The notes beneath the pieces are model-generated. The model searched no databases. It was not told where the DNA came from and saw only the letters and a program-made list of their open reading frames with translations. From NCBI GenBank assembly GCA_029881995.1, contig JAOULO010000018.1:1-57726 (forward strand): a DNA stretch of 57,726 nucleotides, given 5' to 3'. The DNA is from Gammaproteobacteria bacterium. Its GTDB lineage: Bacteria; Pseudomonadota; Gammaproteobacteria; UBA6429; Thiohalophilaceae. Both the position numbers and the translations under genes were made by a program. Shown here piece by piece: positions 26,165-56,508 of this stretch (position 1 is the stretch's first letter; every line of letters begins with the position of its first letter).

Positions 26165-28930
26165 ATGTCCTGTAACAACAACTATCCAACAAGATTAAGC
26201 AAAATCATAGTCTTACTCTTCACGGCCAGCTTAATCAACATGGTAACGGCTCAAAATGCGTATGCCATTGGCGATCAACGTGTAAAACAGTCACGCCAAC
26301 TGATTGAACAGGGCGCCCGCCTGAGTTTTAGAAAAAACGATGGAAAAACCCGCTTTATCGGCACCCCGACCAATAAAGCCATTGCCATTCCAGGCACTGG
26401 GCCACACCTGTCTGCTGATCAGAACGCCCGACTTATAATGAACTCCATGGGAACGGTATTTGGTATACAGGATACAAAGAAACAGCTTCGAACCATGAAA
26501 CAGCACCGCCAGAAAAATGGTAAGACTATGGTTCGGTATCAGCAGTTACATAATGGAGTGCCAGTCCTTGGAGGTGAAGTTATTGTGAACATGGATTCAC
26601 AACAACGATTGATCTCCATGAATGGTGAGCTTTCAGATGACAATGGTATTATTAACACAACACCAACAATAACTCCCGAACAGGCTAGCCATACGGGACT
26701 GGCTACAATTGCCGAAGTACATAAAATTAGCCCACAATTACTGAAAACGAGTACTCCTGAGCTAAAAATCTATGAGCCAAAATTGATCGGACCTCAGACT
26801 GGTGAAGCTACACTTGTCTGGCACCTTGAAATAAAGGGTACATCTCCGCAGTATCTCATTAGAGAACTTGTTTTGATAAATGCTATATCAGGAAAACTTG
26901 AACTGCATTTTAACCAAGTCCACACTGCAAAAAACCGAGAGACCTATGATTCACGTGGTAACGAAAAGGTATATGACTATCTCCCGGGCGATCGTGTTTG
27001 CACTGAAGCTGATGGAGATATTTGTACTGATGGCATAAACCCAGATGCCGATAAAGCACATCGGTTTGCTGGTGATGTATATGATTACTTTCTGAAAGTT
27101 CATGACAGAGATAGTCTGGATAATAAAGGAGGCAAAATCATCTCATCTGTAAATTTCTGTACATCTGATCCCAGATTTAAATGCCCGCTCCCTAATGCAT
27201 TCTGGGATGGTGAACAGATGATTTATGGACAGGGTTATGCCGAAGACGATGTTGTAGCCCACGAACTTACCCATGCTGTTACCGAACACACATCAAATCT
27301 CTATTATTATCATCAATCTGGAGCCATAAGTGAGTCGTTTTCTGATATGTGGGGTGAATTTGTTGATATTGATAATGGCAATAACTCACCAGCTGATGCC
27401 TGGCTCATTGGCGAAGAACTTAAAGATGGAGCTATTCGTAGTATGGCTTTTCCAACTATGTTTGAACAACCTGACAAAATGACGAGTATATTCTACGCAA
27501 CTAATACCAACAAACTCCAAAGTGATTTTGATAATGGTGGTGTCCATACAAACAGCGGAATAAACAATAAGGCTGTATATCTTATGGCTGACACGAATGG
27601 GGTTAAACCTTTTAATGGTTATAACATTACAGGTATTGGTACCCAGAAGGTCGCAAAAATATACTACGAAGCCCAGACATCGCTACTTACTTCAGGTTCG
27701 GACTATAGCGACCTTTATGCTGCAGTTAATCAGGCATGTTCCAACCTGATTAATAATTCTGAAATCACTGAAGATGATTGTATTACGGTAAATAACGCAC
27801 TGGATGCTGTAGAAATGAATCTGGATCCAAATAATATTAATCCAGATACCGAAGGATTATGTATGCCAGGAGACTCAACAGGACCAAGCTTCGCCTTCAT
27901 TGATGACATGGAGTATGGATTTGGTTACTGGACATTTCGAAACTCTATTGGTGGTATACATCACTGGCAAAGCACATTCGATGTCCTTCGAGCACCATAT
28001 GCTACTTCTGGAGTTCATTCATTATTTGTAGAAGCGATAAACAGTAGAAGCGACCAAACAGCAGAGATTATCGTAAATGTTCCCAATCGACGGCCCTACC
28101 TGCACTTTAAACACTATATTGAGCTAGAGAAGCTAAATGTAAAACTCGAAGATGATAGCATCCGTGAATATAATGATGGTGCCGTAGTTGAATACAGCAT
28201 CGACAATGGTGCTACCTGGATAGATGCATCCTCATTGTTTGTAGATGGACAGCCATACAATGATTATATCCCCGGCTCATCACCCAACACACTAAGTAAC
28301 AGAAATGTTTTTACTGGAATCAGCCACGGATACGTATCAAGCCGCTACAACTTATCCAGTTTACAGGGACAAAAAGTAAAATTTCGCTGGAGAGTAGCAA
28401 CTGATAACTCCAATTATTACAATGACGATGAAGATCCGTATGCATGGCTAATCGATGATGTTGCGATTTACAGTTGTGATAATACTGCAGCGACTAAACC
28501 TACACTACTAATGCCCGATAATAACGCAAAGTTTGCTAAGAACGATCTCATCAAGTTTGATTGGGATGATGGTACTGATGCAGATGGTGATGATATTACA
28601 CATACATTACTGGTCTGCCAGGGCAAGGGCTGTCTTCCGATAAAACCACATGTCCAAACAGCTACAGCCTTTCAGTTAACCCCGGCCCTGGCTGGCCTTG
28701 GTGTAGGTGGAATCCTGTTACTCTTCATTACCGGCTCCTCTCAACGCCGACAGGCCTATGTCCTGGTGATACTCGTCAGTTCACTCTTGCTGACATCCAG
28801 TTGTGGTGGAGGCAGTAGCAGCCGAACAATTTCCGGCCCCCCCCTTGAATATCGCTGGCGAGTTGCCGCCGATGATGGTAATAGTGTGACATATAGTGAG
28901 ATCAGGAATTACTCTGTCGCGGTTAATTAA
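26165..28930 (+). CDS. M4 (thermolysin-like) metalloprotease with internal membrane hairpin and lipobox
   Basis: A 921-residue exported zinc protease. Order: signal peptide (1-32), FTP/PepSY propeptide (MVRYQQLHNGVPVLGGEVIV), then the M4 catalytic domain with HELTH at 366-370, third zinc ligand Glu390 in GAISESFSD, and general acid His461 in GGVHTNSGI. A jelly-roll-like region follows (FIDDMEYGFGYWTF to AWLIDDVAIYSC), then a Fn3-like domain starting at TLLMPDNNAKF. That domain is interrupted at residues 840-885 by a helix (LAGLGVGGILLLFITG), a basic turn SSQRRQ, a second helix and LLTSSC-GGGSSS, a lipobox with Cys880. The Fn3-like strands resume with YRWRVAADDG to the end. Classic M4 enzymes lack this. 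Confidence 0.92.
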   Translation: MSCNNNYPTRLSKIIVLLFTASLINMVTAQNAYAIGDQRVKQSRQLIEQGARLSFRKNDGKTRFIGTPTNKAIAIPGTGPHLSADQNARLIMNSMGTVFGIQDTKKQLRTMKQHRQKNGKTMVRYQQLHNGVPVLGGEVIVNMDSQQRLISMNGELSDDNGIINTTPTITPEQASHTGLATIAEVHKISPQLLKTSTPELKIYEPKLIGPQTGEATLVWHLEIKGTSPQYLIRELVLINAISGKLELHFNQVHTAKNRETYDSRGNEKVYDYLPGDRVCTEADGDICTDGINPDADKAHRFAGDVYDYFLKVHDRDSLDNKGGKIISSVNFCTSDPRFKCPLPNAFWDGEQMIYGQGYAEDDVVAHELTHAVTEHTSNLYYYHQSGAISESFSDMWGEFVDIDNGNNSPADAWLIGEELKDGAIRSMAFPTMFEQPDKMTSIFYATNTNKLQSDFDNGGVHTNSGINNKAVYLMADTNGVKPFNGYNITGIGTQKVAKIYYEAQTSLLTSGSDYSDLYAAVNQACSNLINNSEITEDDCITVNNALDAVEMNLDPNNINPDTEGLCMPGDSTGPSFAFIDDMEYGFGYWTFRNSIGGIHHWQSTFDVLRAPYATSGVHSLFVEAINSRSDQTAEIIVNVPNRRPYLHFKHYIELEKLNVKLEDDSIREYNDGAVVEYSIDNGATWIDASSLFVDGQPYNDYIPGSSPNTLSNRNVFTGISHGYVSSRYNLSSLQGQKVKFRWRVATDNSNYYNDDEDPYAWLIDDVAIYSCDNTAATKPTLLMPDNNAKFAKNDLIKFDWDDGTDADGDDITHTLLVCQGKGCLPIKPHVQTATAFQLTPALAGLGVGGILLLFITGSSQRRQAYVLVILVSSLLLTSSCGGGSSSRTISGPPLEYRWRVAADDGNSVTYSEIRNYSVAVN

Positions 28931-48760: not shown

Positions 48761-48783
48761 AAAACTATTTACACATCGCCGTG

Positions 48784-48860
48784 TTTCTGAGGGGCGCTGC
48801 AGCAGATTCAATTCTGTCAGGCTCAGAAATAGACGGCTTTTTGGAACAACGGCGCTCGTT
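48784..48860 (+). promoter_or_regulatory. S-adenosylhomocysteine (SAH) riboswitch
   Basis: The conserved parts of the SAH aptamer are all present: TTCTGAGGGGCGCTGCAGC (48785-48803), the pairing CTCAGAA (48822-48828) forming P1, and AACGGCGCTCG (48848-48858), whose GGCGCTC pairs with the GGGGCGC region as the P4/pseudoknot. SAH riboswitches switch on ahcY when the inhibitory product SAH accumulates. It ends 20 bases before the ahcY ATG, so it likely acts at the ribosome site (GGAGAA). Confidence 0.93.
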
Positions 48861-48880
48861 CAAAGTACGGAGAATCGACT

Positions 48881-50302
<1,422 letters not shown>

Positions 50303-54351: not shown

Positions 54352-56508
54352 TTATTGATACGTAATCGTTAATTGCGGTGGACTAACACAACCAGGGACA
54401 CCCTCTTTACTACAATACGTGGTAGCCCTCAACTGAGTATCATTTGGAAAAAGAACATTATTATCCTCTAGCAGGAAACCATAATTATTATAGTTCCCGT
54501 TTGCCCAGTTCTGAACAATATTTGTAACATCGATTGCCTGGTATAGTACCCCTGTCACCGGTTGGTTAAACAGAACCCTGGAACCATTATAAACCTGAGG
54601 TATGCTATTCCAGGTTACACCTGCTGTCCAGTTTTCAAAAACTGCCCACACATTGTACTGAGTAAAACTTGCAGGCAGAATTTCAGGTTTTATCTTTAGG
54701 GTCGCACTTATAATTGTCTTGCCACTGATATCTGCATCAACATTAAAATACAATAGACTAATTGCACACACAAAATCCTGAATACCTGTAAATAAACTAT
54801 ATATCCAGTTACAACCTACCGCATTTTCAGCCGAAGCATAGGCAGTATTCTCTATACTGCTGTTTGTTGAACTTTTCATGACCAGGTTATCATTAGTTAT
54901 AATGTAGGTGTTGGTTACCTGAGAGCTGGCAACTGTTACTGCAACCACATCACTCCATGCAGAAACTATAGAGGACGCATAAACTGCTCTAACACGATAA
55001 TAATAGGTACCCGCAGAGGCCCTATTATCAATGTCTTCGCTATTTGCCGATCTGTCACCGTATCCTACTGAGGTATAAATATTACTAAACCCAGAGCTTG
55101 AAGACGTTGAAGAACGCTGCAACTGGAATCCGTCACCACTGCTAACCAAACCACCACCTGAACTCCAGCCATAACTCCAGGACAGTGTGAAATCAGAGGC
55201 TGTATTGGCCGATGCTGGCCCTGAAAGTGAAGGTGCTGAATCACCAGTAGTGAGTGTTTTTACATTCGTATATGAATTACCACCATCATTATATGCTGCA
55301 ATTCGATAATAGTAAGTCGTTCCAGCCGAGACTGTAGTATCGGTATAGCCTTCACTGTCTGCAGCCTGTGTGCTGATTGTGGTAAATGGACCACTTTCTG
55401 ATGTCGTACTCCTCTGCACTTTGAAGCCTGTTTCATTATCACTATTATCTGACCATGATAATGTAACTGAATTTATATATGCATAAACAGCTATTAGACT
55501 GGTTGGTTCGCTTGGAGGAGGAACGGCTGCAGCCAATGTGGTAGCACTTGCCACATCAGAAAATGGTGAGTTAAGTGCATCCTTTTTCGCACTCACACGA
55601 TAATAATAAGTTGTCTCAGCCGACAAGCCATCGGTATCACTGTAGCTTTCGACATTGGCAGCTACTGATCCAATGGTTGTAAAACCTGAATCTGAGCTTG
55701 TACTTCTTTGAATATCAAAGCCTGTTTCATTATCCGATTTGTCTACCCATGTTAGATCTATTCTGTTTGCTGAGATTGCAGAGGCACCCAAACCTGTTGG
55801 CTTAACAGGTATATCAACCGATTCTGCCAATGTTGTTGCCTTCATGATATCCGGGGATGAAGAATCACCTGAGTTATTTCTTGCAAAAATTCTGTAGTAG
55901 TATGTTGTTTCAGGAGCGAGACCATCCGTGTCAATATATTCAGTAGTATTTGGTCCCAAGGTTGCAATTATCTCGTATCCGGTATCTTTACTTGTACTTC
56001 GTTCTATAATGAAATTATTTTCATTATCTGACATATCTATCCAACTCATTGAAATTGAACTCGATGATTCAGCATTTGCGGTAAATTTCGCTGGGGCAAT
56101 TGGTGCTGCCGTGCTTGCTACTAAAGTAGCCGCATCGTCTTCATTCGAAGCCTCTGAGTTACCAACTGCATTTGTGGCTAATACTCGATAATAATATGTG
56201 GTTTCAGCCAACAGACCAGATGCGTCCGTATAACTCGTAATATCTTTATTCAGGCTGACTACCACTTCAAAATTCACGCCAGCCGTTTGGCTTCGCTGAA
56301 CAATAAAGCCTGTTTCATTATCAGAATTATCCTGCCAGACTAGAGATATTGTATTTTCAGAAATCCCTGTCGCAACCAGGCCTGATGGCGCATCTGGAAC
56401 AGTCCCACTACCTGCACCAGCACCAGTACCACCACCTCCACTACCACCACATGCCGATAGAGCAATGAACGTAAACAGATAAAAGAGAATGGAAATTATT
56501 TTATTCAT
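54352..56508 (-). CDS. Surface lipoprotein with five Fn3 domains and a DNRLRE-type domain
   Basis: A 718-residue lipoprotein. The lipobox is LSAC at 17-20, followed by a Gly-rich linker. Five fibronectin type III domains of about 95 residues follow; four share SDNETGF- or SDNENNF-type loops and ETTYYYRV strands. The C-terminal 165 residues (YIITNDNLVMKSSTNSSIEN, LKIKPEILPASFTQYNVWAV, VTWNSIPQ, VTNIVQNWANGNYNNYGFLL) match DNRLRE-type domains. It is likely anchored in the outer membrane and exposed, perhaps for adhesion or glycan binding. Confidence 0.88.
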   Translation of the reverse strand: MNKIISILFYLFTFIALSACGGSGGGGTGAGAGSGTVPDAPSGLVATGISENTISLVWQDNSDNETGFIVQRSQTAGVNFEVVVSLNKDITSYTDASGLLAETTYYYRVLATNAVGNSEASNEDDAATLVASTAAPIAPAKFTANAESSSSISMSWIDMSDNENNFIIERSTSKDTGYEIIATLGPNTTEYIDTDGLAPETTYYYRIFARNNSGDSSSPDIMKATTLAESVDIPVKPTGLGASAISANRIDLTWVDKSDNETGFDIQRSTSSDSGFTTIGSVAANVESYSDTDGLSAETTYYYRVSAKKDALNSPFSDVASATTLAAAVPPPSEPTSLIAVYAYINSVTLSWSDNSDNETGFKVQRSTTSESGPFTTISTQAADSEGYTDTTVSAGTTYYYRIAAYNDGGNSYTNVKTLTTGDSAPSLSGPASANTASDFTLSWSYGWSSGGGLVSSGDGFQLQRSSTSSSSGFSNIYTSVGYGDRSANSEDIDNRASAGTYYYRVRAVYASSIVSAWSDVVAVTVASSQVTNTYIITNDNLVMKSSTNSSIENTAYASAENAVGCNWIYSLFTGIQDFVCAISLLYFNVDADISGKTIISATLKIKPEILPASFTQYNVWAVFENWTAGVTWNSIPQVYNGSRVLFNQPVTGVLYQAIDVTNIVQNWANGNYNNYGFLLEDNNVLFPNDTQLRATTYCSKEGVPGCVSPPQLTITYQ

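Follow-up and report, generated by a model that had tools for sequence, protein, structure and literature searches.

A split Fn3 tail with an internal lipobox on an M4 metalloprotease and other proteins, a candidate C-terminal lipid anchor

The M4 metalloprotease encoded in a 57,726-nucleotide stretch of gammaproteobacterial DNA (the window; contig JAOULO010000018.1 of assembly GCA_029881995.1, Thiohalophilaceae) ends in a tail whose Fn3 domain is interrupted by a two-helix hairpin and a lipobox. The same anatomy recurs, conserved, on proteins of several kinds; a structure model assembles one Fn3 domain from both halves of the tail, and relatives of the protease carry another type of tail. We consider it fairly probable that the tail is a modular C-terminal anchor: Lgt and Lsp would make a 42-residue lipoprotein from its end, which would stay bound to the protease as strands of the Fn3 domain.

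Results

The protease and its tail

The ORF at 26165-28930 (plus strand, like all features of this gene) is open from end to end and encodes a 921-residue precursor of an M4 (thermolysin-type) metalloprotease with the HExxH motif HELTH. Its catalytic and alpha-helical domains (residues 258-550; 26936-27814) pass the Pfam cut-offs for PF01447 (76.2 bits, E 4.7e-21) and PF02868 (126.3 bits, E 1.4e-36). A Sec signal peptide occupies residues 1-34 (26165-26266), with cleavage predicted between NAYA and I, and an FTP propeptide motif follows at residues 107-156 (26483-26632; PF07504, E 1.9e-14). The region of about residues 645-775 (28097-28489) is MAM-like: NF038112 covers the stretch 645-775, and PF20773 scores 20.5 bits, below its cut-off. 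Elsewhere in the window, a 718-residue protein with Fn3 domains is encoded at 54352-56508 (minus strand), and an SAH riboswitch (RF01057, 64.4 bits) lies at 48783-48864 (plus strand), upstream of an ORF at 48881.

The preliminary description of this DNA had pointed to a helix-RR-helix segment with a lipobox between Fn3 strands. We confirmed this anatomy in the ORF, and AlphaFold2 (AF2) and VIA place an Fn3 half on both sides of the hairpin. The tail opens with the N-terminal Fn3 half (residues 778-825; 28496-28639), which AF2 builds as strands and in which P10 and W26 (tail numbering) are conserved. It then passes through VCQGKGC into helix 1 (residues 841-857; 28685-28735), a Gly-rich helix with LAGLG where other tails have [YF]AG. 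The basic loop QRRQ (residues 860-863; 28742-28753) leads to helix 2 (residues 864-879; 28754-28801), which ends in LLTSS and resembles the h-region of a lipoprotein signal placed internally, with a PS51257-like core. The lipobox Cys880 (28802-28804), the predicted site of lipidation and of SPase II cleavage, is followed by the linker GGGSSS (28805-28822), Gly/Ser-rich across tails, and by the 35 residues of the C-terminal Fn3 half (residues 887-921; 28823-28927), also built as strands by AF2, which reach the stop.

The claim of a lipobox is well borne out, as the pattern is canonical and the Cys is invariant in the relatives. In the window tail, the residues before Cys880 are TSS, with Thr at position -3. 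The -1 residue (A, G or S) and the basic n-region agree with a bacterial lipoprotein signal, and the location departs from the N-terminal one of such signals, the Cys being residue 880 of 921.

Collection of related tails

Searching with the window tail alone, we recovered two proteins whose parts follow one another as in the window tail, both from G069, a genome of the window's class. The alignment of these three tails gave one match in a Candidatus Manganitrophaceae genome of the phylum Nitrospirota. A contig profile search gave three loci, namely a true tail (L059), an uninterrupted Fn3 domain (L060) and the tail already known in G069 (L061). The four-row model then found 70 places in 28 of 295 Nitrospirota genomes, with at most seven genes per genome; one broken gene (G831) is counted twice among the 70 and another is cut by a contig end (G691).

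The domain matches numbered 101, or 82 without duplicates, and 63 when a match had to run from model positions 1-8 to 150 or beyond. These 63 distinct full-length tails comprise the window tail, both G069 tails and 60 tails that come from 25 of the 28 Nitrospirota genomes. The 19 rows left out consist of uninterrupted Fn3 domains (L056, L060, L071), rows at contig ends (L070, L109, L110), a match split in two (L111), rows whose first half matches poorly (L096, L112), frame-broken genes (L097, L115) and a remnant (L098). The frame changes of L097 and L115, real or due to sequencing error, lie once in the loop between the helices and once toward the end of the N-terminal Fn3 half. L098 (1501-1734, minus strand) is a 78-codon open stretch that encodes no more of the tail than helix 2, the lipobox and the C-terminal Fn3 half; no first half was seen ahead of them, and it is either a remnant or a free-standing version. 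One further locus, L136, carries the same tail outside the set of 63. The search proposed earlier, for proteins with a lipobox between Fn3 halves, thus gave 63 full-length tails, that of the window included. Fn3 strands follow the lipobox in 63/63, which is a partial test since the search model already contained such strands.

Used alone as a query, the window tail matched two genomes out of 274 in its class (its own and G069) and two out of 398 in its phylum; the second match in the phylum, L056, is an ordinary Fn3 domain with no interruption. An order-level survey found a window-type tail in 2 of 40 genomes, the sole other being G021, on another protein. The window genome, a draft of 132 contigs, has one such tail at E ≤ 1e-6. 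A draft assembly and a tail found once in it would suit a sequencing or assembly error that fused a protease gene with a lipoprotein gene, a risk that the preliminary description had itself raised. Another 62 tails show the arrangement without a break, as does L136, from a member of the bacterial family. Because those 62 tails stand in continuous ORFs, the chance of a frameshift or fusion artefact is negligible and we exclude it.

Conservation and hosts of the tail

An HMM made from the 62 other tails finds the window tail at 65.1 bits (model 2-162 of 164, i-E 3e-18 at Z=10000). The median pairwise identity among tails is 0.34. Only P10, the lipobox Cys (63/63) and Fn3 W124 are invariant columns, a conservation that is partly conditioned because the four-sequence search model already held the Cys and both Fn3 halves. 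Of the incomplete or broken tails, all 8 that extend as far as helix 2 also keep the Cys. The loop before helix 2 has a net charge of at least +2 in 63/63 tails, where the rule for picking the Cys already demanded two basic residues.

Around the Cys, position -1 is S in 47 tails, A in 11, G in 4 and Q in 1 (S, A or G in 62/63). Position -3 is L in 36, F in 9, A in 6, V in 6, I in 3, and T, S and G in one tail each; position +2 is G in 50, S in 7, D in 2, and four others once each. The PS51257-like lipobox core, in the form that we take to be PROSITE's, fits 60/63 tails at this place, the window included. In the bodies of the same proteins, with the first 60 residues excluded, the hydrophobic form of the lipobox gives 1 match in a total of 35,515 residues, and that match resembles an N-terminal signal peptide. 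The Cys lies 42-72 residues from the C-terminus (median 57, 63 tails), and the tail ends 0-9 residues before the stop in every full-length case.

At the other end of the hairpin, [YF]AG heads helix 1 in 38/63 tails, against 2.2 expected on shuffling, and the columns concerned (101-104) have A in 54/61 and G in 47/60. The likeness of helix 1 to a sorting tail, proposed earlier, therefore holds for its build (a conserved motif, a helix and a basic cluster) and fails for its type, since the helix is Gly-rich and has no GlyGly-CTERM motif. GlyGly-CTERM itself was ruled out for helix 1, with no NCBIfam match.

Scanning the body domains of 20 of the 39 ORFs that are complete at the 5' end, we found the tail on M4, M6, M12B-like and S8 proteases, on a GDSL esterase and a chondroitinase-B-like protein, and on laminin-G-like, FG-GAP, VesB-like Ig and beta-propeller proteins. 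A simple signal-peptide test was passed by 36 of the 39 ORFs, and the remaining three have a hydrophobic N-terminal segment. Tail genes also occur in groups of two to four per stretch, in L118 (G882:C52), L124 (G985:C19), L116 (G832:C109) and L103 (G785:C35). One of the L118 genes combines a Pfam rhodanese match with VesB-like Ig domains, and several neighbours start alike by eye. The tail-bearing protein of L104 (501-3539) has an additional N-terminal lipobox (LALMACGSNGGG) and is possibly doubly lipidated.

A modelled Fn3 fold from two halves

Performing AF2 predictions on single chains with all 63 rows, we obtained pLDDT block means of 92-96 for tail residues 1-50, of 89-97 for residues 121-147 and of 47-64 between them (pTM 0.56). 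With 4 rows, the halves were built and the hairpin was poor. AF2 thus builds both Fn3 halves confidently and leaves the hairpin out of the modelled fold. We label the strands of the N-terminal half A, A', B, C and C', and those of the C-terminal half E, F and G; the labels are our own.

By VIA, 74 residues drawn from both halves align to the Fn3 modules of CbhA (Z 9.2, rmsd 2.2) and 77 residues to CelAly B1 (Z 9.2). The beta-sandwich that the AF2 model builds from both halves accordingly has the Fn3 fold. PD-1 Ig chains come next in VIA (Z about 8), and because they are so close behind, the Fn3 label rests on sequence relatives too. Foldseek against the PDB gave no match at E ≤ 0.001, the best being CelAly B1 (E 0.084, probability 0.99). 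Pfam, fn3 included, has 0 families matching the window tail at E ≤ 1e-3, so the window Fn3 is divergent; fn3 matches 42/63 tails.

Uninterrupted Fn3 domains locate the insertion. Those of L056 and L060 align to the tail model in two blocks each (5-53 and 122-153; 2-41 and 117-153), which puts the hairpin after strand C/C' and before strand E. The conserved core residues are spread over both halves, with P10, W26 and Y39 in the first and Y122, W124 and F142 in the second. The suggestion that the two halves could still pair is therefore plausible, given these residues and the one-fold AF2 model.

A curated family covers the hairpin

The preliminary description knew of no account of such a tail. 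This does not stand, as NCBIfam release 20.0 contains NF058595 (invert_tail), a 'lipo-invert putative C-terminal anchoring domain', which already covers the hairpin. The window scores 25.5-25.6 bits against it (E 1.2e-5) where 37 bits are needed, which leaves it outside the curated family. Among the 63 tails, 55 match NF058595 at E ≤ 1e-3 and 8 fall short. When ten tails were scanned singly, two passed the cut-off (L072, 37.6 bits; L135, 42.8 bits) and one gave no match. Both passing tails belong to the 62-sequence model that finds the window, and since the window tail is homologous to them yet below the cut-off, we regard it as a divergent relative of the family that the curators named.

NF058595 spans the hairpin and lipobox and continues into the C-terminal part. 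It differs from our tail model in extent, with 113 positions, about 24 of them before the window's match. As only these precede the match, most of the A-B-C half probably lies outside NF058595; its final positions match strands of unrelated Ig-like proteins, so that it probably includes the second Fn3 half. We also tried NF058595 as a probe. Among relatives it matched 33 of 58 genomes at E ≤ 1e-3, with 0 over the cut-off, and 5 of 14 controls matched as well; the readable plus-strand loci were mostly ordinary N-terminal lipoprotein signals. Across the class, 6 of 274 genomes matched at E ≤ 3e-6, again with 0 over the cut-off, and we used the whole-tail model instead.

In the open-licence PMC literature we found no publication on lipo-invert, an internal lipobox, an internal lipoprotein signal, a lipobox in a C-terminal anchoring domain, or an internal signal peptide for signal peptidase II with a lipobox. 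The PMC papers that speak of a 'C-terminal lipobox' appear to mean the end of the signal peptide. Beyond NF058595, our analysis describes how the Fn3 domain is split, shows that the lipobox is invariant and that such tails extend into Nitrospirota, documents an exchange of tail types on the M4 protease, and proposes a mechanism.

Relatives of the protease carry a different tail

Queried with the M4 protease, 58 sampled genomes gave matches in 11, among them the genome of the window. In other genomes of the same bacterial family, 10/10 readable C-termini of these relatives (L002, L003, L004, L005, L006, L007, L008, L009, L012 and L014) match JDVT-CTERM, 9 of them over the NCBIfam cut-off (29.6-42.8 bits) and L009 below it with 23.4 bits; L014, a fragment of 162 residues, shares no more of the query than its MAM-like region. 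The window protein has no match to JDVT-CTERM (NF033191, 27 bits required). The same enzyme thus bears two unrelated C-terminal tags in related bacteria, and since its relatives have a JDVT-CTERM sorting tail in place of the split tail, the latter probably has an anchoring job.

JDVT-CTERM pairs with MrtJ, to which the MYXO-CTERM protease MrtX is closely related, and for MYXO-CTERM lipidation of the Cys by an Lgt-like enzyme, followed by a cut, has been proposed (PMC11980579). These tags, with their CPBP proteases MrtJ and MrtX, are C-terminal like our tail and, like it, combine a Cys with a helix and a basic end, and JDVT-CTERM is borne by the same M4 family in other genera of the bacterial family. 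They have one helix, a Cys before it and nothing past the basic end, whereas in the window tail the Cys follows the second of two helices and is itself followed by an Fn3 half. The GlyGly-CTERM/rhombosortase system likewise concerns secreted proteases whose C-terminus carries a helix and a basic end, and these are processed by an intramembrane protease (PMC6219818, PMC13393428). The window tail differs from it in having no GlyGly motif and 58 residues after the basic loop. Ordinary lipoprotein signals (Lgt/Lsp/Lnt) share the basic n-region, hydrophobic stretch, lipobox and Gly/Ser linker, and have the Cys near the N-terminus, whereas in these tails it is internal.

These comparisons bear on the fate of the protease, which the preliminary description had as either released or anchored. 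Were both ends of the hairpin cut and the halves to part, the protease would be released, and the lipidated piece would be left as waste or as a separate product. The release branch of that description and the [YF]AG motif that heads helix 1 speak for this outcome. We nevertheless judge it improbable, given that core residues are conserved in both halves, that AF2 builds the Fn3 from both, and that the relatives carry a sorting tail thought to anchor. Of the two branches, release is thereby less likely than anchoring.

Search for a partner enzyme

We clustered 655 ORFs from 48 stretches (some overlapping) of 27 genomes, and no dedicated partner protease was found among the 15 non-tail families present in at least 3 of these genomes. 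Response regulators form the largest of these families, with 9 genomes; no other exceeds 4, the number reached by the next in size. Exosortase is present in 17/28 tail-bearing and 109/267 other genomes (p 0.047) and rhomboid in 25/28 and 213/267 (p 0.32), all genomes of unstated completeness; neither occurs in every tail-bearing genome (n=28). In 3 genomes, exosortase-like proteins lie 3-5 kb from tails (L139:5556-6473, L154:12254-13108 and L174:3182-4123). They were so labelled by eye, and two of the three places are also PF09721 matches.

The want of a dedicated protease would suit a hairpin that is simply an uncut inner-membrane anchor with the Fn3 domain intact above it, the Cys being kept for another use, such as lipidation without cleavage. 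Such a hairpin would anchor with no processing at all, and the Gly-rich helix 1 suits helix packing. Set against this, a full lipobox in 60/63 tails, S, A or G at -1 in 62/63 and Gly at +2 in 50/63 exceed what an anchor needs, and Lsp is expected in Gram-negative cells generally. We therefore think an uncut anchor unlikely, though not so improbable as parting halves.

Discussion

The reading that we favour is a lipid anchor made at the C-terminus by Lgt and Lsp. After Sec export, the hairpin would enter the inner membrane with helix 1 running from outside to inside, the loop inside and helix 2 running from inside to outside. By the positive-inside rule, the basic loop QRRQ is expected to be cytoplasmic. 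Cys880 would then sit at the periplasmic face, like the Cys of an ordinary prelipoprotein; in the pathway of such proteins, the helix after the basic end presents the Cys to Lgt and Lsp. Lgt would add diacylglycerol and Lsp (SPase II) would cut before Cys880, turning the last 42 residues into a miniature lipoprotein that holds strands E-F-G. These strands would stay bound to A-B-C at the end of the protease as one domain. From the core residues conserved in both halves and the one-fold model, we infer that the halves remain bound and give the protease a C-terminal lipid anchor; its own signal peptide and propeptide use up the N-terminus. The topology, the lipidation, the Lsp cut, the lasting pairing, any second cut and the final location are likewise inferred steps.

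Were the protein cut a second time, at the [YF]AG that tops helix 1, it would lose the hairpin, and the complex would then be free to go to the outer membrane or to enter type II secretion. Such a cut is plausible because the motif, the helix and the basic cluster together have the build of known sorting signals. With helix 1 uncut, the hairpin alone would already anchor the protein and the lipid would be redundant. A tentative extension, in which we place rather little confidence, is that Lsp and a putative intramembrane protease acting at [YF]AG excise the hairpin, leaving the split Fn3 domain as a non-covalent clasp on a lipoprotein of 42-72 residues. It is just as doubtful, though possible, that any host protein hangs in this way by its C-terminus from a lipoprotein made of its own tail.

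In bacterial lipoproteins the lipid is attached at the N-terminus, and to our knowledge C-terminal lipid anchoring is known or proposed for only a few sorting systems. If the proposed anchor is real, the C-terminus of a secreted protein would be turned into one of two domain halves, equipped with a lipobox of its own. This would be a further sorting principle, one for which Lgt and Lsp may suffice. Signal-peptide predictors that consider the N-terminus only would overlook such lipoproteins, and the split domain might be usable as a two-piece display tag. Surface proteins would be lipid-anchored at the C-terminus through the machinery of N-terminal lipoproteins, and this would help to account for the display of proteases and Ig-like proteins in Nitrospirota and some Proteobacteria.
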